In this document: piece after piece, positions 7,828 through 58,380 of the stretch
Layout of the letters: each line of letters opens with the position of its first letter
Numbering within the stretch: position 1 is the first letter of the stretch
Assembly (NCBI RefSeq): GCF_001375535.1
Contig: NZ_LN831197.1
Span: 3,691,064-3,755,063 of the forward strand
DNA from: Bacillus niameyensis
Lineage (GTDB): Bacteria; Bacillota; Bacilli; Bacillales; Bacillaceae_C
Length of the DNA stretch: 64,000 nucleotides
Direction: 5' to 3'
The notes under the pieces: model-generated
What the model was told of the DNA's origin: nothing
Database searches by the model: none
Seen by the model: only the letters and a program-made list of their open reading frames with translations
Position numbers and translations under genes: made by a program

Positions 7828-8904
7828 ATGGAGAAGAAGACGATTGTTTTAACGGGCGGTGGATCCGCAGGTCATGTTACACCGAATATGGCCATCATTC
7901 GTGAGCTTGATATAAAAATGTGGGATATCCATTATATTGGTTCTCATTCCGGGATAGAGAAGGAGTTAATGGAAAAAATTGATGTTCCCTATCACGGGAT
8001 CAGCAGCGGCAAGCTTCGCAGATATATGAGTAAGAAAAATGTGGGAGATATTTTTCGCGTAATAAAAGGATGTTTAGAAGCACGGAAAACGTTAAAGAAG
8101 ATTCGTCCGTCCCTCGTATTTTCTAAAGGTGGATTTGTTTCTGTACCTGTAATTGTTGCGGCAAGTACATTAAAAATTCCAACGCTGATCCATGAAAGTG
8201 ATATTACACCGGGGCTAGCCAATAAAATTTCCCAGAGGTTTGCAAGCAAAATTTTCACATCATTTGAAGAAGCAACTCACTATTTTCCTGCCCATAAAGC
8301 GCAACATATTGGCTCGCCAATTAGAAGAGAGATTTTAACTGGTTCCCTAGAAAAGGGGTTAAGATTTCTTGATTTTAATAAAAGGAAACCAGTATTAACA
8401 ATTATGGGAGGAAGTTTGGGAGCGAAAAGAATAAATGAAGTTGTAAGGAATTCTTTAAACGACTTAATAAAGGATTTTCAAATTGTCCATCTCTGTGGAA
8501 AAGGTCAAGTAGATTCTTCTCTGCAACAGATCCCGCAATATCGTCAGTTTGAATATGTTCATGACGAGCTAGCGGACATCCTGGCAGCAACGGATTTGGT
8601 GATCACAAGAGGGGGATCAAATGCGATATTCGAATTTTTATCGCTAAAAATACCAATGCTTATAATCCCGTTAAGTTTGCAGCAAAGCCGAGGGGACCAG
8701 ATTTTAAATGCAAAATCATTTGTGAAAAGCGGCTATGCCAACATGCTAGAGGAAGAGAACTTGACTGAAGAATCGCTACTTTTACAGTTAAACGAGTTGC
8801 AAAATAAACGTACTGAAATGAAAAAGAATATGAATACTACTATAAAAAATGACGCTTTGACCATTTTATTGAACGAAATTCGTCTATGGTCAAGAGGGGA
8901 GTAA
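7828..8904 (+). CDS. MurG-like UDP-GlcNAc glycosyltransferase (paralogue outside the cell-division cluster)
   Basis: Two-domain GT-B enzyme of the MurG family, which adds GlcNAc to lipid I to make lipid II at the inner membrane face. Seen: glycine-rich [11 protein letters not shown] (10-20), [34 protein letters not shown] and the donor-site segment [11 protein letters not shown]. The segments deviate from classical MurG wording (for example HESD in place of HEQN) as in the second MurG copies of some bacilli. No mur, mra or fts genes flank it, whereas the housekeeping murG normally lies in that cluster. ATG 7828 follows GGAGGAGG. The next gene starts four bases after its stop, so the two are cotranscribed. 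Confidence 0.75.
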
Positions 8905-9806: not shown

Positions 9807-10766
<960 letters not shown>

Positions 10767-18079: not shown

Positions 18080-18251
18080 CAGATGGCCCCCTTTGTAACC
18101 AGTATGTGTCCAGAGGCGAGGAAAATAACATTCTTTTTTTCGACATTTGTGTAGCCATAATATACCGAGCATTAGCTAAATTCAATAAGATCTCTGATGG
18201 GAAGATATGGAAGTAAGGCCGCCATTCGACAAAGCCAGTATTGAGGAGGAC

Positions 18252-18280
18252 TTGACGGGTAAGTCAGAATAATTTAAATT
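18252..18280 (+). promoter_or_regulatory. Putative sigma-A promoter of the first LplA-like gene
   Basis: TTGACG (18252-18257) and TAAATT (18275-18280), 17-bp spacer. The same -10 and spacing occur ahead of the second LplA-like gene and of the oxidoreductase gene at 40626. Confidence 0.45.
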
Positions 18281-18420
18281 ATTGGGAAGGTTAACTCTAA
18301 TTTATGTAGGCGTATACTTTAATGAGAAATATATTGTGGACCGTGGAGGGGGATGCGATAAAAAAGTTTGAAGTTAGTTCTTTGCTCAAAAATAGAATGG
18401 ATGACGAAAGGGGTCAAACA

Positions 18421-20004
18421 GTGAGAAAGGTATTCCTTTTATTAGCTATTTCATTGTTAATTTTCCAAGTTGCTTGCAGCAAGGATACAGGAAGTAAACA
18501 AACTGAGGAAGAACAACTAGAAAATCTTAATGAGACAGGCATGCCCATTGTTAAAGAGCCGATAACGTTAAAAATGTTTACCGGGATGGGGGCAAAGACG
18601 CCGAGGAACTGGGATGACATATTGATTTGGAATACGTATGAAGATATGACTAATATTCAAGTTGAATGGGAGCAAGTAGAGCAACAAGCATTAGAGGAAA
18701 AAAGGAATCTCTCCTTAGTAGGGGGGAATCTTCCCGATGTGTATTATGCTGCTAACATGCCAACCTTAGATATTTTTAAATATGGTCAGCAAGGATCCTT
18801 TTTGAAGTTAAATGATTTGATTGATAAATATGCGCCGAATTTTAAAAAGCTCATGGAAGAGAACCCGGAAATTCGTAAAGCGATCACATTCCCAGATGGT
18901 AATATTTATTCTTTGCCGGTGATTCACGACCCAGAATTCACTTCCGTAAGGACGCATCCACTCCCATATTTTAATCAAGATGTACTTGATAAATATGAGT
19001 TGGAAATTCCGGAGACGACAGATGACTACTATCAATTTTTGAAAACTGTAAAAGAAAATGAGCCGGATCTCATTCCTTTCGGTGCACGAAATATTACCGC
19101 ATTGATCGGTTGGCTAAAAGGATCATTTAGTGTTTCCACAACAGGTCGAAGTTATATTGACAAAGATCCAGAAACAGATGATCTTCGATTCTACCCTATA
19201 ACGGATGGGTACAGAGAAATGTTGGAATATATTAATAAGTTATATTCGGAGAAGCTGATTGAACAGAATATCTTTACAATTGATGTCGCGCAATTTCTTG
19301 CAAATGGCGGAGAAGGATCCTATGCGAGCACTGTTTTCTATGCACCAGGAGAACTTTTCGGCAAGGAAGTAGGGGAAAAGTATGTTGGAGGATTACCGCT
19401 TGAGGGTCCTCATGGCGAAAGAAAATTTGCCCAATTAGCGAATCCTGTTGGACATATCGGAAAATTTATCATTACTAGTGAAAATCCCGATCCCGCTGCA
19501 ACAATGAGATGGGTTGATTATTTTTACAGTGATGAAGGGTCTAGATTATTCTATATGGGGCTAGAGAACGAGACATATGAAGAAGTAGATGGTAAATACA
19601 AATACGTAGATAAAATTGTAAATGATCCTGAAGGATTATCAAAAGATGAAGCCATTTTGAAATACCTTGGATGGGTCGGTATAGGGGCTCCAGGGATATT
19701 AAAGGAACAGTATTTTGATGGATCCGAAAGTGCAGATCAAGCATTAGAAGCAGCGAAAAAGGTTGAACCTTATTTAATTAATGAAGCATGGCCGCCGTTT
19801 ACGTATACAGAAGAAGAAGCGAAACGTCTAGATGCTTTGGCAGCTGATATTGAAAAATATGTCGTTGAAATGCAAGATAAGTTTATCGTGGGGGAAGCTG
19901 CTTTCTCTGAGTGGGATAGTTATGTTGACAGTATTCAAAAAATGGGATTAGACGAGTATATGGAAATTCAGAAAGCTGCATTTGATAGATACGTAGAAAA
20001 CTAA
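18421..20004 (+). CDS. LplA-type extracellular solute-binding lipoprotein, copy 1
   Basis: Binding protein of the long family 1 group that includes B. subtilis LplA and YtcQ, 527 residues. It starts at GTG 18421, served by AAAGGGG; the encoded signal (RKVFLLLAISLLIFQVACSK) ends in lipobox VAC. An ATG-initiated extension to 18322 would bury the signal peptide and is unlikely. The mature protein is very similar to the product of the next gene over nearly its whole length (for instance both share LPDVYYAANMPTLDIFKYGQ). No permease genes follow, unlike the lplABC arrangement, so partners must be encoded elsewhere. Ligand probably an oligosaccharide. Confidence 0.88.
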   Translation: MRKVFLLLAISLLIFQVACSKDTGSKQTEEEQLENLNETGMPIVKEPITLKMFTGMGAKTPRNWDDILIWNTYEDMTNIQVEWEQVEQQALEEKRNLSLVGGNLPDVYYAANMPTLDIFKYGQQGSFLKLNDLIDKYAPNFKKLMEENPEIRKAITFPDGNIYSLPVIHDPEFTSVRTHPLPYFNQDVLDKYELEIPETTDDYYQFLKTVKENEPDLIPFGARNITALIGWLKGSFSVSTTGRSYIDKDPETDDLRFYPITDGYREMLEYINKLYSEKLIEQNIFTIDVAQFLANGGEGSYASTVFYAPGELFGKEVGEKYVGGLPLEGPHGERKFAQLANPVGHIGKFIITSENPDPAATMRWVDYFYSDEGSRLFYMGLENETYEEVDGKYKYVDKIVNDPEGLSKDEAILKYLGWVGIGAPGILKEQYFDGSESADQALEAAKKVEPYLINEAWPPFTYTEEEAKRLDALAADIEKYVVEMQDKFIVGEAAFSEWDSYVDSIQKMGLDEYMEIQKAAFDRYVEN

Positions 20005-20022
20005 AATAAATAATAAAGGGCT

Positions 20023-20059
20023 AAAGCGAGTGGGTAATTTTCTTTTCTCACTTGCTTTT
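20023..20059 (+). terminator. Terminator after the first LplA-like gene
   Basis: AAAGCGAGTG and CACTTGCTTT pair (one G-T wobble) across a pyrimidine-rich loop and run into TTTTA. Confidence 0.6.
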
Positions 20060-20134
20060 ATAATAGTCGAAAATTCACTGCTAGACTCGTTTTCTAGCAA
20101 ATAACCGAGAAAAAGTAGTTTTTTTTACAAAGTA

Positions 20135-20163
20135 TTGACAGAAAAATTATAATGGTGTAAATT
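20135..20163 (+). promoter_or_regulatory. Putative sigma-A promoter of the second LplA-like gene
   Basis: Consensus TTGACA (20135-20140), 17 bp, TAAATT (20158-20163). A TATAAT (20148-20153) lies inside the spacer. This gives a leader of about 440 nt. Confidence 0.5.
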
Positions 20164-20259
20164 TGACGAAAGATGATTTTAAAAAAGTATAGTTAATAAT
20201 GAAATTTACTTTCACCCACATCCTATCAGAATTTAACTTTATAAAGATATTAAGCATGA

Positions 20260-20289
20260 TGTTATTAATTTAAAATAAGATTAATAACA
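20260..20289. repeat. Inverted repeat in the leader
   Basis: Perfect 10-bp arms TGTTATTAAT and ATTAATAACA separated by 10 bases. It could be an operator or an AT-rich RNA hairpin. Confidence 0.45.
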
Positions 20290-20335
20290 CGAGTACAATT
20301 TGTTTATTGTCTAGGAATTAAGCCTCATCGATTTG

Positions 20336-20350
20336 TTGCAAACGCATACA
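20336..20350 (+). promoter_or_regulatory. cre site (CcpA-binding), full consensus match
   Basis: TTGCAAACGCATACA fits the Bacillus consensus WTGNAANCGNWNNCW at every defined position. It lies between the proposed promoter and the second LplA-like gene, so carbon catabolite repression by roadblock is plausible. Confidence 0.65.
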
Positions 20351-20612
20351 TCAAAATCTCCTTTTGAAGTTTTACCGTCATTTTTAGAGTGCGTTGGCAA
20401 ACCTCTTGCGTAATAGAATGATTTCATTTTTTCAAGAATGGATAGATCAAGGGTTTCCCTTGTTTATCAATATTTATTACCTTAAAGGAGTGTGATAAAT
20501 AAAGAGAAATAATGAAGGTTGGAACTCATCTTTTTTTACAGAACCGTGAAAAGCAGCCATAGTTCGATGGTTGCTAATGCTGAACAAAATGTTGAGGGGG
20601 GTATCTTAAAAA

Positions 20613-22208
20613 ATGAGAAAACTATTGTACGTGTTTATGGCTTTAGCTTTAGTAGTACTTGCTGCATGTTCGAAGGATTCAGGCGGTGAGGCAGAAAAGG
20701 AAAAAGAAAAAGAAGAAGCCCAACAGAATCTAAACGAAACAGGGATGCCGATCGTAAAAGATCAGATTACATTGAAAATGTGGGCAGCAATGGGTAATAA
20801 CACGATGAAAAACTGGAATGACATTCTAGTCTGGAACACTTATGAAGAAATGACAAACGTTAAAGTCGAGTGGGAACAGGTCGAGCCAGATGCGGTTGAG
20901 GAGAAAAGAAACCTTTCCCTAGTCAGTGGAACACTTCCCGATGTTTATTATGCTGCGAACATGCCGACTCTAGATATCTTTAAATATGGGCAGCAAGGTT
21001 CGTTTGTAAAATTGAATGATTTAATTGATAAGTATGCTCCTAATTTAAAGAAATTAATGGATGAAAATCCAAGTATTCGTAAAGCGATTACATTCCCGGA
21101 TGGAAATATATATTCACTTCCAGTTATTCATGATCCTGAATTCACATCAGTAAGGACACATCCACTTATGTGGTATAACAAGGAACTATTGGATAAGTAT
21201 GGAATGGATGTTCCTTCTACAACAGAGGAATTTTACACATTCTTGAAAACGGTTCAAGAAAAAGATCCTGATATTACTCCATATGGATCTTACAATGGAA
21301 CACTGCATGTTAACTTCTTAAGAGGAGCATTTGGTGTAGGAAATACTGGACGCAGCTATATTGATAAAGATCCTGAGTCAGGTGAACTTCGTTTCTATCC
21401 AATAACAGATAATTATCGTGAGCTATTGGAATATGCAAACAAGCTGCATACAGAGAAGTTAGTTGAACAAAATATCTATACGATTGACTGGGCTCAATTC
21501 TTAAACAATGGTGCTGAAGATAAGTATGCAAGTATGGTATTCTATGCACCTGAAGAGCTGTTTGGTAAAGAGATTGGAGAAAAGTATGTAGGTGGTTTAC
21601 CGCTTAAAGGTCCACACGGTGATCAAAAATGGGCACAAGTGGCATTCCCTGTAGGTCATATTGGTAAATTTATTATTACAGATCAAAACAAAAATCCTGA
21701 AGCAACGATGAGATGGGTCGATCATTTCTACAGCGATGAAGGTTCAAGATTGTTCTACATGGGTGTAGAAAACGAAACTTATGAAGTTGTTGACGGCAAA
21801 TATAAGTATATGGATCACATCACTAACAGTACTGAAGGATTGACGAAAGAACAAGAAATCGTTAAGTACCTAGGGTGGATTGGAATCGGTGCTCCTGGTA
21901 TTCTAATGCAAGATTACTTCGATGGGTCTGAAGGATCTGATCAAGCTTTAGAAGCAGCAGCAAAAGTAGAACCATACCTTCTTGATGAAGTATGGCCGCC
22001 ATTCACTTATACAGAAGAAGAAAGTAAAGAGTTAACAGCGTTAGCTGCAGACATCGAAAAATATGTCACTGAAATGCAGGATAAATTCGTTGTTGGCGAA
22101 GAGTCTCTCTCTAACTGGGATAAGTTCGTAGACACCGTTAAGAAGCAGGGTCTTGATCGATACATGGAAATTCAAAATGATGCTTATCAAAGATATTTAG
22201 ATAACTAA
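20613..22208 (+). CDS. LplA-type extracellular solute-binding lipoprotein, copy 2
   Basis: 531-residue paralogue of the preceding lipoprotein. The signal peptide ends in lipobox LAAC followed by SKDSGG and a Glu/Lys-rich linker (EKEKEKEEA). Mature sequences of the two copies are conspicuously alike from NLNETGMPIVK to the C-terminus, so they arose by tandem duplication. This copy has its own promoter, a long leader with a cre site, a GAGGGGGG ribosome binding site about 12 bases before ATG, and a very strong terminator. No permease or ATPase genes are nearby. Probably binds an oligosaccharide and works with a transporter encoded elsewhere. Confidence 0.9.
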   Translation: MRKLLYVFMALALVVLAACSKDSGGEAEKEKEKEEAQQNLNETGMPIVKDQITLKMWAAMGNNTMKNWNDILVWNTYEEMTNVKVEWEQVEPDAVEEKRNLSLVSGTLPDVYYAANMPTLDIFKYGQQGSFVKLNDLIDKYAPNLKKLMDENPSIRKAITFPDGNIYSLPVIHDPEFTSVRTHPLMWYNKELLDKYGMDVPSTTEEFYTFLKTVQEKDPDITPYGSYNGTLHVNFLRGAFGVGNTGRSYIDKDPESGELRFYPITDNYRELLEYANKLHTEKLVEQNIYTIDWAQFLNNGAEDKYASMVFYAPEELFGKEIGEKYVGGLPLKGPHGDQKWAQVAFPVGHIGKFIITDQNKNPEATMRWVDHFYSDEGSRLFYMGVENETYEVVDGKYKYMDHITNSTEGLTKEQEIVKYLGWIGIGAPGILMQDYFDGSEGSDQALEAAAKVEPYLLDEVWPPFTYTEEESKELTALAADIEKYVTEMQDKFVVGEESLSNWDKFVDTVKKQGLDRYMEIQNDAYQRYLDN

Positions 22209-22227
22209 GTCTTATCGCATCTAATAT

Positions 22228-22273
22228 CGAAAGGTTGTATCTCGATTGATCGAGATACAACCTTTCGATTTTT
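22228..22273 (+). terminator. Very strong terminator after the second LplA-like gene
   Basis: A near-continuous 19-bp stem (CGAAAGGTTGTATCTCGAT and its exact complement) is followed by ATTTTTA. Confidence 0.9.
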
Positions 22274-22305
22274 ATAAAAGATGAAATTTTTCCGGATGAA
22301 CTGGC

Positions 22306-22617
22306 CTATTCCAGTTCATCTTTCGGCAGGATGATAATCGTTGCTTTGTGATCTGTTTCAGGCACTGTTGTCTGGATGATTTGGCACCTTGTTTTATAAA
22401 ATTCTTTCATTTCGTTTTTTAAATCAGAAAGGGCATTGCGGATCGCCTGTTTTGTATTTGCTCCGCTCCCACTCCCCGCTATGCTTTCTTCCTGATAATA
22501 GTAGTAGTTGGCAAATGCTTGAGTATGGCCTTCGTAGACGTAATAATCAACTTCAACCTTCATCCCATTTTGGAGGGTAATCCAAAATACTTTGCTTTCT
22601 CTAGGCAATTGATACAT
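22306..22617 (-). CDS. Hypothetical protein
   Basis: A 103-residue soluble protein that I cannot assign. It has a Tyr-rich stretch (FANYYYYQEE), then GSGSGANTKQ, an amphipathic helix and a beta-rich C-terminus ending in acidic residues. I chose the ATG at 22617, preceded by AAAGGGG; an upstream in-frame ATG at 22653 has no ribosome binding site. It lies alone on the minus strand, downstream of and convergent with the second LplA-like gene, so it gives no functional clue by context. Small Bacillus-specific accessory protein is the best description. Confidence 0.5.
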   Translation of the reverse strand: MYQLPRESKVFWITLQNGMKVEVDYYVYEGHTQAFANYYYYQEESIAGSGSGANTKQAIRNALSDLKNEMKEFYKTRCQIIQTTVPETDHKATIIILPKDELE

Positions 22618-23035
22618 ATCCCCAACCCCTTTCGTATATGTTGTCCCGTTCATTTTTTAAAATGGCATAATCACATTGTATTCTTCCTCACGCATAACTG
22701 CAAGCAGATTTAAGTAGCATCTCCATTTCTTCCGATAACGATCGGATATTGTTAAAAGCCGCTGTATAAAATACTTTTTAGAAGTAGTTACTAAAGTTAT
22801 ATCTGTATAGATTAATACATGCGTGTCTTTAGACTTATTAATCGCTAAGGTATATTAAAAATTATATCATACTAGGTATTTCGATATGTTGAAAATGGAC
22901 TATATCTGGTATTATGGAATAGACGACAATTTTTGACATTTTTATATAGATGAGTGTGGACAAATTTAAACGATGTGTATACTTATCAAGCTTAAGGCGA
23001 CAGTGGTACCTTAAGCTTTTGTCATTTTTTATAGA
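22618..23035. other. Intergenic region upstream of the five-gene operon
   Basis: No gene is seen. A TTGACA at 22933 has no fitting -10 box, and a TTGAAA/TATTAT pair near 22890 is too closely spaced, so I could not place the operon promoter. A terminator-like hairpin occupies its right end. Confidence 0.4.
22988..23020 (+). terminator. Terminator-like hairpin in the leader of the five-gene operon
   Basis: AAGCTTAAGG and CCTTAAGCTT are perfect 10-bp arms followed by TTGTCATTTTTT, about 15 bases ahead of the first gene. It is either a terminator insulating the operon or an attenuator controlling it. Confidence 0.6.
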
Positions 23036-25549
23036 TTGGAGGGGGTCCTTGTCAAAACGATAGAAACTCATTTACAGGAAGCCATCTATCTTGATAACAG
23101 AGGTTTTATAAAAGAGGCTAAACTCCAGTATGATCAAGTCATTGATCATTTACAGCAATTTGATGCGGAGTCTCTTACGCGAATAAGTTCTTTTTATCAT
23201 TCCCAACGTCAGTACGATGTTGTATTTAATGCTAGTAAAATAGGTATAGAGAAATTAGGAAACTTAAATATATTGGGACCTTTGTTTCTTACGGCGTGGG
23301 AGAGAATGAGCCAAGAACTCCACTACATAGAATGGTTGCTTGTACAGCCAGGGATTGACTATTTACTTTCTATAAAACTACGGATCGCGGAACATTTACT
23401 TAAGGCCGGTAAATTGGATAAAGCTTATATGATTTCTCTTGAAGTCGCAGAAAAAATAGAACATGAATTTCGAGAAAATCCAAGCCAATCCAGTCTTTAT
23501 ATTGATATATTGCTTCATTTAGTAGGTATAGAGTTTGAGTTGGGGAATTTGACTCAGGCAAGGTTTCATTTACGAAAACTGATCTTTCTGAAATGGGAGT
23601 ATTTGGAAAGAGGGCAAGATATTGCTTACTGGGCTATTCTTCTTGATGAAATGACACATCTCATCATGCGCCCCGATTGGAGTCATAACGATTGGAATTT
23701 GTCTGATGATGTTCAGCTTATCGCTCAATTTTATGAAGAACTTGCCGGAAAAGTTTTATCTAAAAATCTAGTCCAGCAGTTGCGATCCAAACCTTTTCAA
23801 GATCAAAGACTTGAGCAGAAGCGAAAGATTTACATACGGTTTATTAAGAAAATGGGTAAGCAGTCTGATTGGAATGAAGGTATAGAGGAAGCTTTTCAAG
23901 ATAATCCAAATGACTTACTTTTAACGCTTTTATATGCTGATTTTCTTAAGGAGGAGCGACCAACTGAGCGAGCTTCTTTTTGGAAAAGGGAATTCACGAA
24001 ACATGCCGATCGGCCTGAGGCAATTAAGGCTTATTGGAATACATCCGAAAAACATCGTGAACAGAAAAAGTTAGATGTGGATTTGGATGATTGTGAAATC
24101 ACCTTTTTAGGCGGCGGAGAAAAGATTGGCGGAACGTCGATCTTAATAAGTGTTAAAGGCCATCATATTCTGCTCGATGCGGGGATGCATTTGCATGAAG
24201 AGGTTTATCACCCTGATTATTCGCCCCTACTTGAAAGAGGAATTTCATTTGAAGATATAGATGCACTTCTTATCTCTCATGCCCACTTAGATCATACAGG
24301 AGCCATTCCATATATTTACAAGCAGCAGGCCGATATACCAATCTATGCTACTGAGGCGACTAGAAATCTAATGAAATTGCTGCTTATTGATTCTGTTCGA
24401 ATGGACAATGAAACACATCGTCTTGACTATAGTGAAGATGATGTCCACGCAGCATTACTTTCAATTCACAATGTTGATTTTTCCAAAACGTTCATTATCC
24501 CATCTGGTCATGATGAATGGAAGATTACCTATTTCCCTTCAGGACATATATTAGGTGCTGGTGCTATTCATATCGAAATGCAAGGGATTTCTATCTTGTT
24601 CACAGGAGATTATTCAGTTGACGAACAAAAAACCGTTTTAGGATTAGATCTTCCAGATGACCTATCTGTTGATATTTTAATAACGGAGTCTACTTATGGT
24701 TTTCTCCCAACTAACGCTAGTCTCGGAAGAGCAAGACAGGAAAAACTGTTTGTTGAGTCGATCAAACGCACGATGGATAAGAGGGGATCGATGTTAATTC
24801 CCGCATTTGCAGTCGGAAGAGCACAAGAAATTATTCTCATCTTAAAGGAAGCATTTAAAGAGGAAAGGTATTTACCTTTTAATCTTTTCATTGATGGACG
24901 AGTGACCGATGTCTGCCGGATCTATCAAAGATATGCGGAAAAAGGGCAATATATAAATCCAGCTTTCTATCAAAAAGAGGAAGAAGAACAGATCTTTTTT
25001 GGTGGAGGTGTGCAAGCTGCTCAAGAGATTTATTCGAACAGATTTAATAGTCCCTACACATTTAAAGATTTTATGGAAGACTATATTTCACCGGGAAACA
25101 ATTGTATCGTTGCAAGCTCCGGGATGTTAACAGACAACAGTGCCTCTGCCCGTTATGCGGCATCCCTTATTGAGGAAGAGAAAAATGCTATTTCCTTTAC
25201 AGGGTATATGGATGAGGAAAGTCCTGGACATAAAATTTTGCAGACGAGAAAAACTGGGGAAATTGAAACAACAAATGTCAATGGTGATGAGAAGGAAGTC
25301 CACGCTAGAATTGAGTCTTTTCGTTTATCTGCTCATGCAAGCCGTGAACAAATTTTAGGGCTAATTGTCACTCTACAGCCTAAACGAGTCTTCCTCATGC
25401 ATGGTGAACATACGAAAAAATATAAACCTACTCAAACAATTGTTGGCGGGGAGAAAATTTATCCTTCTATTATTGATTTGCTCGGGTTTTTAAACGATAA
25501 AATGACGATTACTGCCGCCTTTAATGGCCAAACCTATCATTTATATTAA
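23036..25549 (+). CDS. TPR-like / beta-CASP metallo-beta-lactamase fold protein (predicted ribonuclease)
   Basis: 837 residues. About 1-340 is an all-helical, TPR-like region. From 352 on is a metallo-beta-lactamase plus beta-CASP domain of the CPSF/RNase J superfamily: HAHLDH (415-420), H504, D525, E551 in ESTYG, IPAFAVGRAQE (589-599), SSGM (694-697), H767 in SAHAS and H789 in MHGEH. The zinc ligands and beta-CASP motifs are complete, so an RNA endo- or exonuclease is expected. Odd start: the frame opens at TTG 23036, yet the strong GGAGGGGG lies just after it and no standard in-frame start codon follows at the usual spacing. First gene of a five-gene operon (14 bp to the next gene). Confidence 0.85.
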   Translation: MEGVLVKTIETHLQEAIYLDNRGFIKEAKLQYDQVIDHLQQFDAESLTRISSFYHSQRQYDVVFNASKIGIEKLGNLNILGPLFLTAWERMSQELHYIEWLLVQPGIDYLLSIKLRIAEHLLKAGKLDKAYMISLEVAEKIEHEFRENPSQSSLYIDILLHLVGIEFELGNLTQARFHLRKLIFLKWEYLERGQDIAYWAILLDEMTHLIMRPDWSHNDWNLSDDVQLIAQFYEELAGKVLSKNLVQQLRSKPFQDQRLEQKRKIYIRFIKKMGKQSDWNEGIEEAFQDNPNDLLLTLLYADFLKEERPTERASFWKREFTKHADRPEAIKAYWNTSEKHREQKKLDVDLDDCEITFLGGGEKIGGTSILISVKGHHILLDAGMHLHEEVYHPDYSPLLERGISFEDIDALLISHAHLDHTGAIPYIYKQQADIPIYATEATRNLMKLLLIDSVRMDNETHRLDYSEDDVHAALLSIHNVDFSKTFIIPSGHDEWKITYFPSGHILGAGAIHIEMQGISILFTGDYSVDEQKTVLGLDLPDDLSVDILITESTYGFLPTNASLGRARQEKLFVESIKRTMDKRGSMLIPAFAVGRAQEIILILKEAFKEERYLPFNLFIDGRVTDVCRIYQRYAEKGQYINPAFYQKEEEEQIFFGGGVQAAQEIYSNRFNSPYTFKDFMEDYISPGNNCIVASSGMLTDNSASARYAASLIEEEKNAISFTGYMDEESPGHKILQTRKTGEIETTNVNGDEKEVHARIESFRLSAHASREQILGLIVTLQPKRVFLMHGEHTKKYKPTQTIVGGEKIYPSIIDLLGFLNDKMTITAAFNGQTYHLY

Positions 25550-25563
25550 GAGGAGATAGAACC

Positions 25564-27039
25564 ATGAATATTAAAACACAAGTATTAGAAGCTGTTTTAA
25601 AATCTTATGGAAAACCAGATAGAGAGTTATATGCTAGTATTCCAGAGATGCCGAAAGAGGAGCTGGAACAGCATCTAAAAGAGTTTAATCTGCTTGATGG
25701 GAGAGACCGCAATTCATTTTTCTGGCAATTACAGTCGGAAGCTGAGAAGCACGTCTATGAAAATATTACTTCCGATGATACGGAACGTTTAGCAGAACTA
25801 ATTACAGAAAGTTGGAATAAGGAAAAAGCGATTAAAATTGACTCGGCCTTGGCTATCAGCTTTTTGTATATTATTAATTTGAAATTTCCTAATTCTCGAA
25901 AAGCACTAGCCTATGTTTGTGAAGGAGATCTTCAAAGTTATAAAGCGTTCAACAGTAAGTCGCGTTTGTTTGCAGATTTATTGGTGCGTTATGTAGCGGC
26001 CATTACACCTAAGAACTTTATGAGAAAAGTCGACTTCATTGTACAGCAAGTATTATCCAGAATTTTTGATGATGTTCATAAAGGTGATGGAATGGCTGCA
26101 GTTGATCGAGCAGGATTTGCAAAGGGTCCAAAATTTATCCATATTCCAAAAATGAATGCCTATCAGCGGATAATTGGCTTAAAGAATCAGCCATTTGCTA
26201 ACGGGATCGCTACGATTTTACTAGATGTTTTAAAAGAAGATGAAGAATCTATTGACATAAGAGAATTGCGAAAAAGATCGGCAAAGTTTTTATCCGCACA
26301 GGAAGAAAAGATCGAGGATGAAGACTTTGAATTGAATGATCTGATGGATGACCATGTTCCAGAGGCTGACTTATTCGAAGATATCACGACTGAAGAGCCT
26401 AGTCTTAAAGAAGTTAACAGTGAAGAAGATGCTCCAACGGCTGAAGAAAATGAAATTTTTGAAGAGGAAGCAGTATTACCGCATGCTGAAATTCGAACTT
26501 CTTTGCAACAAGCGCTAAAAGCAGTTGAAACGGCAATGGAAAAAGTAAATGAATGGCCGGAACAAACCACATTAGCAGCTGACAATACTGATCGTAGACT
26601 TGTCATTGCCGAAGAGGAAATTGAACGTTTAAAAGTCGCTTTAGATCAAGAAAAAGAAAGAGTACACGAAGCAGAGGAAAAAGCTTATATGAAAATTTTC
26701 CAAGCAATTGGCGGAGAAGCGAATAATTATCTTTTATCTGATCTGTTTGAAGAAAGTCTAGGTAACACACCAGAGAATCAGAATATTAGTATGGGCAGAC
26801 TCATTAACTTATTTTCTAGTTTAAGCCTAGCCATTGGTTTAGAAGAATACTCAGGCGGCCATGAACTCGGTGATCAATTTACTCTGCAAAAAGATGAACT
26901 GATTAGAAATTATCATATTGATGGTCCGATCGAAAGTAAATCAGAGAATATTCATGTGCGACTACTAAAATACGGCTGGAAGATTAATGGGAATTTACTC
27001 GTGCAACCATTGGTAACTGAAGTGAAGGAGGAAAATTAA
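25564..27039 (+). CDS. Unknown protein of the beta-CASP/Hsp70 operon
   Basis: 491 residues, no family recognised. About 1-245 is helical and compact. About 245-310 is strongly acidic (DEDFELNDLMDDH, TTEEPS, NEIFEEEA), like a flexible linker. About 325-395 predicts a coiled coil with the run RLVIAEEEIERLKVALDQEK. A last small domain (about 400-491) may be helical to mixed. No signal or membrane segment. Good ribosome binding site (AGAGGAG). The Hsp70 gene starts one base after its stop, so their synthesis is tightly linked and a direct partnership is plausible. Confidence 0.75.
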   Translation: MNIKTQVLEAVLKSYGKPDRELYASIPEMPKEELEQHLKEFNLLDGRDRNSFFWQLQSEAEKHVYENITSDDTERLAELITESWNKEKAIKIDSALAISFLYIINLKFPNSRKALAYVCEGDLQSYKAFNSKSRLFADLLVRYVAAITPKNFMRKVDFIVQQVLSRIFDDVHKGDGMAAVDRAGFAKGPKFIHIPKMNAYQRIIGLKNQPFANGIATILLDVLKEDEESIDIRELRKRSAKFLSAQEEKIEDEDFELNDLMDDHVPEADLFEDITTEEPSLKEVNSEEDAPTAEENEIFEEEAVLPHAEIRTSLQQALKAVETAMEKVNEWPEQTTLAADNTDRRLVIAEEEIERLKVALDQEKERVHEAEEKAYMKIFQAIGGEANNYLLSDLFEESLGNTPENQNISMGRLINLFSSLSLAIGLEEYSGGHELGDQFTLQKDELIRNYHIDGPIESKSENIHVRLLKYGWKINGNLLVQPLVTEVKEEN

Positions 27040-27040
27040 A

Positions 27041-28828
27041 ATGGTTCAAAGATATATTGGAATTGATTTAGGAACAACGAACTCAACAGTGAGTGTTGCC
27101 AATTTAACGATTCGTGGGGATGTCGAAGCCCAAGCTTTACAAGTAGCTCAAGTAGATGAATCTGGAAATTCCTTAGTTCAAGATGCTTCGCTTCCGTCTG
27201 TCCTCTATGTAGATGATCAAGGTCAGCCATTTGTCGGCAGATTTGCGAAAAGAATGAATGGCGTTTTTCCGCAACGCGTTATTAAAGAGGCAAAACGTCA
27301 TATCGGTGATGATGTTAGCTGGCCAATCGATGAAGAAAGAATTCGCCCTGAAATTGTTTCTTCTTACGTATTGAAAATATTAAAGGCCCAAGCAGAAGAA
27401 TATTATGCTGGCGAAAAAATCGATAGTGTCGTCATTACGATTCCAGCTAATTTCAATTTCCAGCAACAACAAGCAACGAAACTAGCTGGAGTTTTGAGCG
27501 GATTTGATAAAGAAAAAATTCATATGATCCCAGAACCGACTGCTGCGTTAATCGATTTTTTAAATGAGGAGAAAAGGCTTGCTGCCACTGCTCGGAGATT
27601 GGATTTAGCGCAAGGTAAGAAAAATTTAATGGTGTTTGACCTTGGGGGCGGTACTTGTGACGTTTCCATTCTTCAAGTTAATGAATCACAAAATGGCGGC
27701 ATTGATATTCAAGAACTCTCAATTTCGCAATATACCGAACTTGGTGGGATTGATTTCGATAAAAAAGTCGTCAATGAACTTCTCAAGAAATTATTAAAGA
27801 ATATGGGGCTAAGCTTTCCACAATTAAAAGCGAAGTATGAGAAAAAGGATATTTTGCGCTTGCTTGAAAATCTTCATGATTTAGCGGAAAACGCCAAGAA
27901 AAGTTTCAGTACTAGAATTGAAACCCAACTTAGAACGCAGCAGATTGATTACTACGAAAACAAGGATAAATTTGATAGCTTAACATATCGGCAAATGTTA
28001 TCACCTCAGCTTCCTCAAGAAATGGTGATGACCCTTTCGATTACGAAGAAAGAGTTCGATACGATTATAAAAGGTTTGTTATATAGAGAAGGCAGCCAGC
28101 AAGGCAAAAATATTGAAGAACCGATTTTAGGTGCGTTGGAACAAGCAAAAATTGGGCCGATGTCTGTTCAAGATATTGATGCAGTTTTCTTAGTTGGCGG
28201 GATGACGTATTATCATACAATTCAAGAGCGAATCTACGAGATTTTCGGGAGAAGAATTAAACCGATTAAATCAATTAATCCAATGTTTGCCGTAAGCCGT
28301 GGTGCAGCTATTTATCATCATCAAATAAATCAAATCAATTTTAAAACGAGCGATCAATTACCAGCGAACGTTGACCCAGAAATGAGTGGTCGTGAAGTTG
28401 TCTTTACGAATACGGTTCCGAACAATGTCTACATTAATGTCGTTGGCGGTGATCCAGTTGCACTGCTTGAAAAAGGGACAAAACTACCATTTGAACGCAT
28501 TATTGAAGATCGGTTTGTAGTAACAGGTCAGAGCGATTTTAGTACGGTTAATGCGATGCAGCTTGACTTGTTTACAGCTGTATCACCTAAATCGATTCAT
28601 ACGAAAAGTCTAAAATCAGCTACGATTAATTTTAGAAATCCTGTACCAGTTCATTCGAAATTGGTGTTGAAAGTCGAATGTAATGAAGAACGTGAGGTTA
28701 ATGTTAAAGCTTGGCTGGAAGAAGATGAAACCGAAGTAATTGATGTAAATATCGGTGCACATGAATTTACTGAACAAGAGATTGAATCACTAAAAGCAAA
28801 ACAAGAAAATCTTAATCGCATTAAGTAG
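27041..28828 (+). CDS. Hsp70/DnaK-like ATPase with shortened C-terminus
   Basis: 595 residues. The actin-like nucleotide-binding domain (1-430) has phosphate 1 GIDLGTTNS (7-15), K70 in GRFAKRM, EPTAA (165-169), phosphate 2 FDLGGGTCDVS (199-209) and adenosine motif LVGGMT (384-389), so ATP hydrolysis should be intact. Residues about 440-560 resemble a beta-sandwich substrate domain. The roughly 100-residue helical lid and EEVD-like tail of DnaK are missing. It is not the housekeeping dnaK: no grpE or dnaJ is adjacent. Position inside an operon with a beta-CASP nuclease and helical scaffolds suggests a dedicated regulatory ATPase or assembly chaperone. Confidence 0.88.
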   Translation: MVQRYIGIDLGTTNSTVSVANLTIRGDVEAQALQVAQVDESGNSLVQDASLPSVLYVDDQGQPFVGRFAKRMNGVFPQRVIKEAKRHIGDDVSWPIDEERIRPEIVSSYVLKILKAQAEEYYAGEKIDSVVITIPANFNFQQQQATKLAGVLSGFDKEKIHMIPEPTAALIDFLNEEKRLAATARRLDLAQGKKNLMVFDLGGGTCDVSILQVNESQNGGIDIQELSISQYTELGGIDFDKKVVNELLKKLLKNMGLSFPQLKAKYEKKDILRLLENLHDLAENAKKSFSTRIETQLRTQQIDYYENKDKFDSLTYRQMLSPQLPQEMVMTLSITKKEFDTIIKGLLYREGSQQGKNIEEPILGALEQAKIGPMSVQDIDAVFLVGGMTYYHTIQERIYEIFGRRIKPIKSINPMFAVSRGAAIYHHQINQINFKTSDQLPANVDPEMSGREVVFTNTVPNNVYINVVGGDPVALLEKGTKLPFERIIEDRFVVTGQSDFSTVNAMQLDLFTAVSPKSIHTKSLKSATINFRNPVPVHSKLVLKVECNEEREVNVKAWLEEDETEVIDVNIGAHEFTEQEIESLKAKQENLNRIK

Positions 28829-28838
28829 GAGGGATTCC

Positions 28839-30536
28839 ATGTCTTTACAAGATCGTTTATCATCTGATTTATTTAATAAGTTAAATGAAATGAAAATGAA
28901 TTTACCGAAAGAGAGTTTCAGTTTAGAAGAGTCAGTAAAGGAAGAGGACGAGATTCGCCAAGAATTGCTTAAACAAGCGGCACTTGAAGAGCAATCTGAT
29001 GAAATTGATGATGATTTTCTCACTTCTTTGTCAGGCCCGTCACAGGAGAGCGGTAATGAAACATTGGTCGAGGTCGAATACCTCGGCCGTGTGGGTCTAG
29101 TCGATATTTCCTTTGAAAACTTAGATCAAGAATTAACTGAACAAGAATATCTCGTTATTTTGGATTCATTAAACATAATGTCAACAAGCTCGGATTCATC
29201 GAGCCGAAAAAATGCAGCGAAAAAGATAGAGGAATATGGTGAACGAGCCATTACAGTTATTTTTCGAGAATGCAGACAGTTTGATTTAGCTTCACAAGAA
29301 AGTAAGAATGAACTCCTTCATTTGCTAAGTCGCTTGACGATCAGAAGCTATAAAGGGAGGAAGCTTGTTAAAGCTATTGTCGAAAGAGCGAATAGTAAAC
29401 AGCACATTAGTTTAGCGATTCAGTGTGCGGGGGCGGTTCGTGAACGTGAAGCGGTCTCAAGCATTTTAACTCATATGCGCAATCCCGATTATTTTGGCCA
29501 TGGTTTGGATGCGTTGTTAAAAATTCGTGATAAAAATTCGGTCGAACCGCTTATTCAACTAATGAATAATCTAGATGTCAATCGTACAGAAATGATTGAG
29601 CAAGGGATCCAACAAGCACGCCGTTTTGCTGACTTTGGTCCAGATGCAATCAAACCGATTTTCCATGCTTATATGAATTGTGAAAAGAAACCGATTCGCC
29701 CGATTTTTACAATTGCTCTTAGGTCTTTCCAAGAAGAAGCGGTCCCTTTTTTAGCGGAAGTTCTTGCTAAAGAAACGGACTATGACCAACTTGTTCCAGT
29801 CTGTTTAAATCTCGGAGGAATGCGAACAGCGGTATCAACACAAGTTCTCGTTGATGCATTGGACAAGTATCCTGAGAAGAAACAAGCTCTTATTTTAGGA
29901 ATTAGCCATACGAATGACGAATCACTTGTCCCATTAATCGTGCAAGAACTTAACAAAACATCTGATGCGATTATTCAAAAAGAATGTCTAACAGCGATTG
30001 GTTATTTAAGTGGAAGAGATGCTAATTTATTCCCCGTTATCAAGCCTTATTTACATGATCGCAAAAACAATTTGTATTTAGATGCACTAAACTGCATGGT
30101 GCGTTTAGGTGATCAAGATTCATTTGCAAAATTTGTTGATCTTTTAATGAATGGTGAAGAACGGGAGCAATACATTTTGCAAAAGCATTTATCGAGAATG
30201 CCGTTCCCGCTATTGGAGAAAATGGCAGAAAAGATTCTCGTTATTCCAGATGATAAAGCGATCTTACTCGTATCAGCTCTCCAACGTTCTAATCTGTTAC
30301 CAACAGGAGTAGGGCGGACTTTACTAAAGAAACTTGAACAAAATCCAATGACTGCACTGAGGATTGAAATCTATCGCTTGATCGGGAAGCATGTAGGCAA
30401 GAAGTCAGCGATCGTGTCTCAAGATGTGCTTTATAAGGCGAGAAGAGAGGAAACAAGCCCAATGGTCATTCGTGAATTGGATCAAATTATTAAGTTCATG
30501 AGAAAGAACGTAGGTGTTTTACAAGATACAAAATAA
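28839..30536 (+). CDS. HEAT-like repeat protein of the beta-CASP/Hsp70 operon
   Basis: 565 residues. The first 90 residues are acidic and charged (VKEEDEIRQEL, DEIDDDF). The rest is a series of paired helices of roughly 35-40 residues with the HEAT/Armadillo rhythm, for example AVSSILTHMRNPD, SVEPLIQLMNNLD, DESLVPLIVQELN and NLFPVIKPYL. Such solenoids act as protein- or nucleic acid-binding scaffolds. No enzymatic motif and no membrane segment. Ribosome binding site TAGGAGGG; 10 bp behind the Hsp70 gene. Confidence 0.7.
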   Translation: MSLQDRLSSDLFNKLNEMKMNLPKESFSLEESVKEEDEIRQELLKQAALEEQSDEIDDDFLTSLSGPSQESGNETLVEVEYLGRVGLVDISFENLDQELTEQEYLVILDSLNIMSTSSDSSSRKNAAKKIEEYGERAITVIFRECRQFDLASQESKNELLHLLSRLTIRSYKGRKLVKAIVERANSKQHISLAIQCAGAVREREAVSSILTHMRNPDYFGHGLDALLKIRDKNSVEPLIQLMNNLDVNRTEMIEQGIQQARRFADFGPDAIKPIFHAYMNCEKKPIRPIFTIALRSFQEEAVPFLAEVLAKETDYDQLVPVCLNLGGMRTAVSTQVLVDALDKYPEKKQALILGISHTNDESLVPLIVQELNKTSDAIIQKECLTAIGYLSGRDANLFPVIKPYLHDRKNNLYLDALNCMVRLGDQDSFAKFVDLLMNGEEREQYILQKHLSRMPFPLLEKMAEKILVIPDDKAILLVSALQRSNLLPTGVGRTLLKKLEQNPMTALRIEIYRLIGKHVGKKSAIVSQDVLYKARREETSPMVIRELDQIIKFMRKNVGVLQDTK

Positions 30537-30562
30537 TCCTAATTTAGGAAGGAGCTTGTCCG

Positions 30563-31960
30563 ATGGCTGCTAAGCAAAAAGGAAAGTCACGAAAAAAAGT
30601 TAAAAGATTCCCTTACATTGAAGTGAATGGTGTCCAGAATCAATATCTGGATGCCGCTTTATTACAATGTTTCGGAGAAGAAACGATTTATAATACAGTT
30701 AATAATGAATTTAAAATTTTGAAAAAGGCTGGTATTACTACACAAGATGTTATGCGGAAAAAGTATAATCATCAAGAGCTGACCCAATTATTATCCCCTC
30801 ACCTTTTGGAAAACTATGATTATTATAACTTTTTAGTAAACCAATGGGATGAGTTGCAAGAGCATAATTTGCGTCAATTATTCCCAGAAGATTTTTCAAA
30901 GTTATCCAGTGAGAAATGGGATCAAGCGATTCGAGGGGAATTAGATAAAGGAGAACTGCGTGTCTATCTTGTCATTAATATTTTGCGATTTTATAAAAAT
31001 GGCGAACTGAAAGAATTGCTTTTACCGATTTTGCAAGAAGAGAAGTATGTAATTGAATTTTTTAATGAGACGGGAATCAGAATGGAATTGGAAGGATTGG
31101 AGATTAATTGGAGAGATGTGACAGAACAAGAAGACAAACAAGAAGAGGAAATAGTCCATGCTTTAGAAATGGAGGATTTTAAAATGCCGAAAGAGGTATT
31201 AGAACACCCTGAAGAAGCATTAAAATATGCGTCGAAAATAATTGCAAGCGTTTCGCAGCAACTCGCAAGTAGAGAGAAATCAGAGGATTTCAAACTACTT
31301 TTTGAAAATGAAGTGGAAGAAAAGAAACGTTGGAAAGAAAAGGCGGAGCTATTGCAACGCGACTTAAAATCAAAAGATGCACAACATCAGGATTTAGTTA
31401 AGAAAAACAAGGTATTAACGAAGAATCATGCTAGTCTTACAGCTAAGCTTGACCAGGCGCAAAAGGATAGTGGTCGCTTAGGTCAGACGTTAGGAGAACT
31501 GCGGAAAGAAAAGGAAGAAATAGAATTTCAAAAGAACCATTTCGAGCGTCGGATTCAATCACTTGAAAAAGAAAGAGAGAATGTCGCGAGAAAGGTTGAA
31601 GAAGAAGTAAAAAGAGAGTTCGCTCTAAAAAATTTAAATATGAAGGAAGATTTTGAACGTCAACTGGATCTGTTAGAAAGACAGCTAGAAGAAATGGTAG
31701 AACAGTTGAAGTATGTGCAAGACGAAAATGAGCAATTTACGCTTGATAAAGAGACAATGGTAAATGAGCTTGACAGAACAAAACGTGATTTGACAGTTGT
31801 CGAACAAGAACGCAACGAACTTTTCGAACAACTGCAAAGCAGTGCGGCTATCCAAGAAGTGGCTGCTAATACAAACGATGACCATGATCTCCTTTTTGAC
31901 TTTAACGAGGGAGAACTCGAAGAATACGTAGACTTCGACAACAAACCAACAAGAAATTAA
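30563..31960 (+). CDS. Long coiled-coil protein of the beta-CASP/Hsp70 operon
   Basis: 465 residues. The N-terminus is very basic (KQKGKSRKKVKR), compatible with nucleic acid binding. Residues 15-235 are helical and of unknown fold. Residues about 240-430 are an almost uninterrupted heptad coiled coil rich in Glu, Lys and Gln, so the protein is probably an extended oligomer. The tail is acidic (DDHDLLFDFNEGELEEY). Last gene of the operon, with a GGAAGGAG ribosome binding site. It is followed by dispersed repeats around a hairpin. Confidence 0.7.
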   Translation: MAAKQKGKSRKKVKRFPYIEVNGVQNQYLDAALLQCFGEETIYNTVNNEFKILKKAGITTQDVMRKKYNHQELTQLLSPHLLENYDYYNFLVNQWDELQEHNLRQLFPEDFSKLSSEKWDQAIRGELDKGELRVYLVINILRFYKNGELKELLLPILQEEKYVIEFFNETGIRMELEGLEINWRDVTEQEDKQEEEIVHALEMEDFKMPKEVLEHPEEALKYASKIIASVSQQLASREKSEDFKLLFENEVEEKKRWKEKAELLQRDLKSKDAQHQDLVKKNKVLTKNHASLTAKLDQAQKDSGRLGQTLGELRKEKEEIEFQKNHFERRIQSLEKERENVARKVEEEVKREFALKNLNMKEDFERQLDLLERQLEEMVEQLKYVQDENEQFTLDKETMVNELDRTKRDLTVVEQERNELFEQLQSSAAIQEVAANTNDDHDLLFDFNEGELEEYVDFDNKPTRN

Positions 31961-31962
31961 GC

Positions 31963-31993
31963 GGTGCCTGGCACGCCCCGAATTATGTCGAAT
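31963..31993 (+). repeat. Dispersed palindromic repeat, copy 4
   Basis: GGTGCCTGGCAC, then GCCCCGAATTATGTCGAA (one change from the reference), begins two bases after the stop codon of the operon's last gene. Confidence 0.85.
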
Positions 31994-32000
31994 AAATTTC

Positions 32001-32039
32001 AAAGCCCTCCATGGAAAGAACCATTCCGTAGAGGGCTTT
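32001..32039 (+). terminator. Hairpin ending the five-gene operon
   Basis: AAAGCCCTC and GAGGGCTTT form a 9-bp stem around a long loop that can itself pair (GGAA with TTCC). Only three Ts follow. It is sandwiched between two direct copies of the dispersed repeat. Confidence 0.55.
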
Positions 32040-32069
32040 GGTGCCTGTCACACCCCGAAATTTGTCGAA
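32040..32069 (+). repeat. Dispersed palindromic repeat, copy 5
   Basis: Variant core GGTGCCTGTCACACC followed by CCGAAATTTGTCGAA, in direct orientation to copy 4. Confidence 0.8.
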
Positions 32070-32188
32070 TCCGGGTGTTTACTAAATGGTAATGTTAGGA
32101 ATACTACGAAATTACTATAAAAGAGATTGAAATGCAGGTCGTTCATTTCGTATAATAAAGGATGTGTTGTAAGAGAGTGTAACTTTTT

Positions 32189-32216
32189 TTGTCAAAATAC
32201 GTCTAATAAGTATGGT
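32189..32216 (+). promoter_or_regulatory. Putative promoter of the LCP gene
   Basis: TTGTCA (32189-32194) and TATGGT (32211-32216) with a 16-bp spacer, about 55 bp before the start codon. Confidence 0.35.
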
Positions 32217-32273
32217 AATAGCAAGTATAAGGTATTTTTCAACTTGAAAAATATGAGAAGGGGAATATTAAAA

Positions 32274-41840: not shown

Positions 41841-41872
41841 AGTGTTTGGAACATTAAAGAAGTAAATCTTAA

Positions 41873-41903
41873 TTCGACAAAATTCGGGGCGTGCCAGGCA
41901 CCG
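41873..41903 (-). repeat. Dispersed palindromic repeat, copy 8, in the pgcA leader
   Basis: Minus orientation: TTCGACAAAATTCGGGGC then GTGCCAGGCACC. It ends about ten bases before the pgcA ribosome binding site, so it would lie in the 5' untranslated RNA and could form a hairpin there. Confidence 0.8.
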
Positions 41904-58313: not shown

Positions 58314-58380
58314 GGTGCCTGTCACCACCCGAATTTTGTCGAATTCGGGTGGTGACAGGCACGCCCCGGAAATTGTCGAA
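58314..58380. repeat. Perfect inverted repeat plus third half, dispersed-repeat family (copies 9-11), between galK and galE
   Basis: A 21-bp arm beginning GTGCCTGTCACCACCCGAA (58315-58335), a 6-base loop TTGTCG and its exact complement (58342-58362) form a perfect hairpin. The right arm also serves as the core of a further plus-oriented copy running on through GCCCCGGAAATTGTCGAA to 58380. It begins right after the galK stop and ends about five bases before the galE ribosome binding site. Confidence 0.9.

Follow-up and report, generated by a model that had tools for sequence, protein, structure and literature searches.

Bacillus niameyensis carries, within the 64,000-nucleotide stretch of contig NZ_LN831197.1 analysed here (the whole of which is called the window), a five-gene operon whose products combine a nuclease of the metallo-beta-lactamase (MBL)/beta-CASP type with an Hsp70 chaperone, a probable exchange factor for that chaperone, a HEAT-repeat protein and a coiled-coil protein. 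The reading favoured for it, with a probability of about one half, is that of a mobile and probably anti-invader module in which a beta-CASP ribonuclease (RNase) may be gated by a chaperone cycle. A sequence-only reading made earlier had described five genes at this place, and their order, sizes and gaps are as it gave them:

23036-31960, plus strand: five-gene operon, with open reading frames (ORFs) of 837, 491, 595, 565 and 465 amino acids and intergenic gaps of 14, 1, 10 and 26 bp.
23036..25549, plus strand: gene 1, an N-terminal region of about 340 amino acids, probably of helical repeats, followed by a CPSF73/INTS11-like MBL/beta-CASP/RMMBL nuclease (from Pfam, the best PDB match and residue alignment); start codon uncertain.
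25564..27039, plus strand: gene 2, an N-terminal region, an acidic linker, a coiled coil and a GrpE-like C-terminal domain at about residues 376-491 (from hhalign comparison with 41 GrpE sequences, its controls, and charge).
27041..28828, plus strand: gene 3, an Hsp70 with nucleotide-binding and substrate-binding beta domains and no lid (from Pfam, motifs and alignment with DnaK).
28839..30536, plus strand: gene 4, an acidic N-terminus and then a HEAT-repeat solenoid (from Pfam, the PDB and charge).
30563..31960, plus strand: gene 5, a basic N-terminal tail, a conserved region, a long coiled coil and a C-terminal tail with N-x-P (no Pfam family).

The five genes almost certainly constitute a real module. 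Genes 1-4 stand in the same order at 13 of 13 distinct loci and gene 5 accompanies them at 12, L108 having no recognisable gene 5; each place is counted once, and L105 is dropped as the same place as L027. Twelve of the loci belong to Bacilli, the class being judged from the named members, and one comes from a record labelled Klebsiella. The sequence-only reading had counted on co-occurrence in other genomes, and this is what is seen, with genes 1-4 at 12 loci besides the window, gene 5 at 11, and the genes diverging together. Pairwise distances of the five genes correlate with Pearson coefficients of 0.92-0.98, part of which is simple common descent, across the 10 loci with five unbroken genes (L002, L003 and L108 have split genes or lack gene 5 and are left out of this comparison). 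Chance neighbourhood is rejected on the identical order at 13 loci.

Gene 1 very probably encodes an active nuclease. Its Pfam domains above cut-off are Lactamase_B_6, Beta-Casp and RMMBL, and ten catalytic residues (D381, H415, H417, D419, H420, H504, D525, E551, H767 and H789) are invariant at all 10 aligned loci; these make up MBL motifs 1-4 and beta-CASP motifs A-C. The nearest solved relatives in the PDB are INTS11 (4e-70), CPSF73 and aCPSF1/FttA, with Cas14 of type VII CRISPR lower down. The match to the aCPSF1 equivalog TIGR03675 reaches 260.6 bits, below the cut-off of 580.2, and that to the Cas14 equivalog model 208.6 bits, far below the cut-off of 800. The complete MBL/beta-CASP domain claimed by the sequence-only reading is borne out by Pfam and by the ten residues, whereas the helical repeats claimed in front of it appear just as weak TPR/RPN7 matches in the N-terminal 340 or so residues (Pfam, E 0.06), a region for which a PDB search gave no match. 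In a tree of 88 beta-CASP proteins the 13 operon proteins fall on one side of a 100/100 branch. Among the other relatives, beta-CASP proteins of L029-L050 and further loci (Clostridia and other bacteria) are mostly about 810-890 amino acids long; their nuclease domain sits close to the N-terminus, a long C-terminal extension follows it, and no Hsp70 neighbours occur within the flanks examined.

Gene 2 had been described as an acidic coiled-coil protein of unknown family. It has no Pfam family above cut-off, as described, but its last 115 or so residues are very likely GrpE-like by homology, on profile evidence of moderate strength. A gene 2 profile (13 sequences supplied) was compared by hhalign with 41 GrpE sequences from several phyla, L133 and L183 being left out of the GrpE alignment, and the C-terminal part matches at Prob 62, E 7.4e-5 and a score of 33.0, against 15.7 for the best of 100 column-shuffled GrpE decoys. 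When the cousin proteins from Thermotogota described below are added the match rises to Prob 79, E 1.7e-5 and 36.8, with decoys at 14.0 or less. The other operon proteins score 15.5-26.1 against the GrpE profile and the remainder of gene 2 at most 17.5. The aligned part is the C-terminal region of GrpE (columns 129-189 of 216). A separate small domain unrelated to GrpE, which would leave the operon without a recognised exchange factor, is an improbable alternative. It is favoured by the moderate probabilities (62-79) and by three negative results that also count against the gating proposed below: Pfam GrpE (PF01025) matches none of 11 scanned gene 2 proteins, single-sequence HMMER does not separate GrpE from noise for gene 2, and an earlier comparison with Bacillales GrpE alone was not significant (P 0.079). 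It is opposed by the far lower scores of the shuffled and within-operon controls, by the place of the match in the C-terminal region of GrpE (in the cousin L093, Pfam instead matches the coiled-coil/helical part) and by the position of gene 2 directly 5′ of the Hsp70 gene. PDB searches with the gene 2 and gene 5 profiles returned coiled-coil-type or chance matches only. With a GrpE-like domain in gene 2, the "switch ATPase" of the sequence-only reading becomes a probable Hsp70/exchange-factor pair, in which gene 2 would serve the gene 3 Hsp70. Second, divergent GrpE genes above the Pfam cut-off also occur in members of the genus, at L132, L133 and L134 (genomes G018, G017 and G019).

For genes 3, 4 and 5 the sequence-only reading had proposed an Hsp70 with intact ATP motifs but no lid, a HEAT-like solenoid and a long coiled coil with a basic N-terminus, and all three descriptions stand. 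Gene 3 matches Pfam HSP70 at 167.9 bits against a cut-off of 20.6 (E 3.7e-49), and all 10 aligned loci retain its five ATP-motif regions, a few motif positions showing conservative changes, for example in L107. It aligns with DnaK through the substrate-binding beta domain and ends shortly after it, about where the DnaK lid begins, and is therefore read as lidless. Both this and its score against the DnaK equivalog (183 bits, below 648) place it outside DnaK proper. A lidless Hsp70 should hold its client loosely and exchange rapidly, behaviour better suited to switching than to folding. Of the operon proteins gene 3 is the most conserved, five near copies being 79-80% identical to that of the window, and gene 5 varies most; in the most distant of the 10 compared loci the identities are 46% for gene 3 and 18% for gene 5. 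The genome of the window has its own grpE besides the operon, and a second Hsp70 is present in four of four operon genomes examined. Gene 4 matches HEAT_2 in Pfam (7.7e-11) and alphaRep/HEAT proteins in the PDB, and its N-terminus is acidic by computed charge. Gene 5 has no Pfam family above cut-off; sequence and charge analysis give a basic N-terminus, a conserved region and a coiled coil, and its C-terminal tail carries N-x-P at 10 of 10 loci.

These parts suggest a mechanism, proposed from sequence, in which a metal-dependent CPSF73/INTS11-like RNase (gene 1) would be under the control of its own Hsp70 ATPase cycle. The five proteins may form one complex with RNA as its target, gene 2 acting as exchange factor for gene 3, and genes 4 and 5 holding the parts together as a scaffold. 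In the resting state Hsp70 would clamp a tail or subunit of the complex, so that the nuclease stays inactive or is not put together; candidate clients are the C-terminal tail conserved in gene 5 and the acidic N-terminus of gene 4. Invasion would be signalled by aberrant RNA, or by misfolded or foreign protein that diverts Hsp70, and this signal, combined with ADP/ATP exchange driven by GrpE, would free or assemble the nuclease, which could then cut RNA and stop the invader, possibly along with the cell. Gating of the nuclease by the Hsp70 cycle is put tentatively, at slightly under even odds, and a function in defence is somewhat favoured.

Mobility of the operon is indicated by its distribution and by the site it occupies in the window:

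22215..32261, no strand assigned: segment without counterpart in relatives (from blastn and the gene order in L206 and L207).

Similarity in blastn to relative G009 stops at 22214 and resumes at 32262; that to G014 stops at 22177 and resumes at 32270. These two, of five relatives fetched, keep both flanks with the lipoprotein and LytR genes and have no operon between them (in the other three LytR lies outside the stretch fetched). Among ORFs of at least 90 amino acids, a single DinB_2 gene lies between the flanks in G014, and a chemotaxis receptor with two small ORFs in G009. Gene 2 is present in one of 16 genomes of the genus and one of 34 of the family, in each case the genome of the window itself; given the genus tally, an insertion of some 10 kb is a more economical account than a series of losses, and a place in the core gene set of the genus is rejected. 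No flanking direct repeat was found around the segment. At wider range, and with the window's genome included in each count, a gene 2 profile picks out 4 of 397 genomes in the order, and strong gene 4 matches come from 5 of 398 in the class, along with six further weak HEAT-only matches; in the two of these six whose surroundings were read, L109 and L110, no operon is present. At L109 (G582; 17774-19901 and 9865-10353) about 7 kb of DNA stands between a short HEAT protein and a separate pair of GrpE-like and Hsp70 genes, genes 1, 2 and 5 are absent, and a helicase at the edge is 88% identical to the helicase upstream of the operon in L002.

A plasmid search with gene 1 led to two plasmids that carry all five genes: pNCT2_2 of Priestia megaterium (genes 1 and 5 split) and pNY3A (L002, CP079755.1; genes 3 and 5 split), whose deposited host is Klebsiella grimontii. 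Gene 2 matches no others among 72,556 plasmid records. The host label of pNY3A looks doubtful, with 30-38% G+C in the stretch read and a Bacilli-like operon. In named genomes, the best 80 of at least 453 gene 1 relatives include four with the operon (Bacillus sp. S/N-304-OC-R1, Bacillus sp. REN3, Exiguobacterium chiriqhucha and Neobacillus niacini), and one locus, L067, gave no ORF match. A scan of genome contigs with gene 2 alone gave no lead. The Hsp70 profile at E <= 1e-66 finds none of 291 Clostridia, 194 Cyanobacteria and 188 genomes of the phylum of L033's genome, groups that contain no positive control. A phage-borne operon is rejected since no viral-contig relative was found with the gene 1, 2 or 4 profiles, in scans that rely on short conserved patterns; nor does gene 4 match any phage, and the Hsp70 matches in 37 phage records are less than 60% identical, with at most 31.8% among the matches listed. 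Four Micrarchaeota loci (L061, L062, L066 and L071) have aCPSF1 1.4-3 kb from a DnaK-like gene; the two genes are on opposite strands and the DnaK scores are about E 1e-50, and these neighbourhoods are not counted as copies.

The neighbours of the operon differ from locus to locus. IS21-like genes and a NERD-UvrD gene lie beside the L106 copy, Mu/Tn7-like genes beside L012 and an integrase beside L002; transposase genes were identified at two of 13 loci (L106 and L012) and an integrase at the third of these, the other flanks being partly scanned. Candidate defence neighbours are PDC-S68 (L025), PDC-M72B (L011) and C3a187 and LmuB-like proteins (L106). A PADLOC search with 10 flanking proteins from seven loci, a subset of the neighbours chosen by position, gave three with matches below 1e-20, and five further neighbours of operon loci gave one (L106, LmuB-like). 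A 670-amino-acid protein is encoded 3′ of the operon at L025 (19082-21094) and L026 (19386-21398), the two being 65-66% identical; the L025 protein has double-stranded RNA-binding and RNase III-like domains and is a possible sixth partner. At L010 (1640-2536, minus strand) a gene for a colicin-DNase/WHH-type nuclease comes directly after the operon.

More distant cousins are found in Thermotogota, where the Hsp70 profile at E <= 1e-58 finds 25 of 103 genomes. Two of them stand out by score (295 and 251 bits, against 198-209) and by length, and their surroundings were read; on score and frame length the remaining 23 were taken for ordinary DnaK. Both triads (L093 and L165) encode an MBL protein, a GrpE-like protein and an Hsp70 in the order of the operon, and both Hsp70s carry a C-terminal extension of about 330 residues. 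That this extension is a fused gene 4 is not supported (hhalign E 0.04; no HEAT in Pfam). The L093 triad, from Thermotogae bacterium ADurb.Bin062, belongs to a type III-B CRISPR locus, with Cmr1 and Cas10/Cmr2 genes ahead of it and an array of 18 repeat copies after it. The L165 triad directly follows a NERD-UvrD gene (PADLOC C3a187, 202 bits). The middle protein of L093 reaches the Pfam GrpE cut-off of 25.8 bits when in-frame pieces are added (25.9) but not alone (23.7), and that of L165 has no Pfam GrpE match. In hhalign the two middle proteins together align with gene 2 over 136 columns (E 4e-4, probability 34) and with GrpE at E 1.9e-4.

The sequence-only reading had suggested a response to stress or to phage. 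Of the two, an invader role is favoured by the mobile, defence-like and, in one cousin, CRISPR neighbourhoods, none of which is at the window, and a housekeeping stress role is disfavoured by the rarity of the operon and by relatives without it at the same site. Several observations nevertheless weigh against the favoured reading, besides the negative GrpE searches. Defence-like neighbours occur at a minority of loci and not round the window. Of the 13 operon or cousin genomes searched for NERD-UvrD, five carry the gene, and in only two is it next to the module. None of the five operon genes was recognised as coding for a J-protein. The MBL protein of L165 has 271 residues, too short for a beta-CASP domain, and a full nuclease is therefore not needed in every version. 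Finally, DNA can also be a substrate of beta-CASP enzymes (PMC10910872).

Chief among the rivals, and distinctly less probable, is a stress or housekeeping module for RNA quality, in which the Hsp70/GrpE pair would recruit or remodel a beta-CASP RNase on ribosomes or aggregates with no part in defence. Hsp70s are stress proteins and beta-CASP proteins act in RNA processing and decay, and the copy in the window stands among sugar-uptake, signalling and LytR genes: the ten neighbours scanned there comprise LytR, genes of sugar metabolism and signalling and genes of unknown function, and none is a mobile gene. Such a role fits poorly with the rare and patchy occurrence in order, class and genus given above, with the plasmid copies and the operon-free site in G014 and G009, and with the separate grpE of the window's genome and the second Hsp70 of the four operon genomes examined. 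Less probable again would be an accessory of mobile elements, whether ancillary to CRISPR or for transposon or plasmid maintenance, and not a self-standing system. The cousin inside the type III-B locus, the transposon-type genes at L106 and L012 and the two plasmid records speak for it; the want of a recurring element type in the flanks scanned, and of viral-contig relatives with the three profiles, makes it an outside chance.

Between these two in likelihood, though still unlikely, is restriction that targets RNA in the manner of CoCoNuT systems, where Hsp70 and HEAT proteins would recognise RNA or the ribosome and bring an RNase to foreign transcripts, ATP turnover being secondary. Its basis is the part list of type III CoCoNuTs (with CnuD, which joins Hsp70 to HEAT-like repeats): as set out in PMC11090510, these bring together Hsp70 nucleotide-binding and substrate-binding domains, HEAT-like repeats, coiled coils and nucleases within a single operon of predicted anti-invader function, as here, and its authors propose RNA binding by the Hsp70. 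CoCoNuTs have McrB and McrC homologues, however, and the operon has none among its five genes or in the scanned flanking genes, which do not cover all flanks; identity with CoCoNuT is rejected on this ground. Their nucleases are of HEPN, Vsr or PLD type in place of beta-CASP, an MBL fold appearing once, as a neighbour in a figure legend. The Walker A-like motifs of CnuD are degenerate, whereas the Hsp70 motifs here are kept at 10 of 10 loci, and the main text of the paper has no mention of GrpE (PMC11090510).

Other known systems resemble the operon in part. Type VII CRISPR has a beta-CASP RNase, Cas14, as its effector in defence (parts of PMC10910872 and PMC12669027), and gene 1 matches Cas14 chains in the PDB. 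It is rejected as an identity by the low score against the Cas14 model and by the lack of a cas gene (Cas5/Cas7) in the operon, which has a probable chaperone pair in their place; gene 1 also ends with the nuclease and so has no Cas10-like C-terminal domain, unlike Cas14. Neither paper's main text contains the terms Hsp70, DnaK, GrpE or "chaperone". GAP1-N2 conflict systems pair HSP70 with GrpE in predicted conflict operons, as here, but centre on a GTPase, with FNIII and DnaJ proteins, and "beta-lactamase" is absent from the main text, in contrast to the MBL nuclease of the operon (PMC7159879, in part). The DnaK-GrpE housekeeping chaperone likewise joins an Hsp70 to an exchange factor (a probable one here); the operon set differs in having no lid or recognised J-protein, in being tied to a nuclease and in being additional to the genome's own grpE. 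Within PADLOC-DB 2.0.0 (2023) there is no strong core-gene match, the best E-value of the five window proteins being 5.4e-5, and the operon was not recognised in the open full-text literature, a scope that leaves subscription papers and bioRxiv outside. The claim that no named system has this composition accordingly holds for what was searched, with a chance of about one in five that it is already named elsewhere. As the genes co-occur and no named match was found, neither of the two outcomes against which the sequence-only reading had set itself (genes that do not co-occur, an operon already characterised) came about.

Upstream of gene 1 two hairpins can be drawn:

22226..22269, plus strand: terminator-like hairpin 3′ of the upstream solute-binding lipoprotein gene, with a stem of 20 pairs and then TTTTT; putative, by consensus match.
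22988..23018, plus strand: leader hairpin just 5′ of gene 1, followed by a T-rich stretch (-14.7 kcal/mol, z -2.0; 11 of 200 shuffles equal it).

Because the lipoprotein gene is followed by the terminator-like hairpin, the operon probably starts afresh. The leader hairpin is rejected as a common control element, none being present at this position in the aligned leaders of six relatives. The TTG at 23036 is the earliest possible start of gene 1 downstream of the preceding stop, and it is a doubtful one: a ribosome-binding-like sequence, GGAGGGGG, starts within this TTG, and in six aligned relatives the starts sit a few codons downstream (ATG in four, GTG in one, TTG in one). Elsewhere in the window, a dispersed intergenic repeat (GTGCCTG..CAC..CCCGAA..TTGTCGAAT) is found at 31963, 32041-32070, 41872-41901 (minus strand), 58315-58344 and other places, and also in relative L207; two copies lie directly 3′ of gene 5. 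The sugar-binding lipoprotein adjoining the operon (18322-22208) belongs to a large family with 12 matches in its own genome at E <= 1e-100, itself included. A match to Rfam S414, a Staphylococcus small RNA family, at 8357-8530 (minus strand) scores 47.7 bits against a gathering score of 45, sits in a seemingly non-staphylococcal genome and may be due to chance.

CPSF73, INTS11 and archaeal aCPSF1 (FttA) have the same MBL-beta-CASP core and complete active site as gene 1, but the operon nuclease is bacterial and mobile and lies below the aCPSF1 cut-off. CPSF and Integrator also carry their nuclease on HEAT scaffolds, and we know of no Hsp70 or GrpE in eukaryotic or archaeal CPSF-type complexes. 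It is a speculative and rather unlikely step further that the operon is a bacterial counterpart in design of CPSF and Integrator, a HEAT-borne nuclease run by a private Hsp70-GrpE cycle that would sense invader proteins or transcripts and release cleavage of foreign RNA. To our knowledge no earlier immune system has the nucleotide cycle of its own Hsp70 as trigger. If the favoured reading is true, the chaperone cycle, normally a housekeeping motor of folding, would be both the sensor and the switch of a nuclease system. Sensing by bNACHT25 depends on DnaJ, an example of a chaperone feeding an immune sensor (PMC12169576, in part), and the operon would offer a testable answer to how infection may be sensed through proteostasis. 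It would also mean that type VII CRISPR is not the only form of mobile bacterial immunity to use CPSF73-like nucleases.

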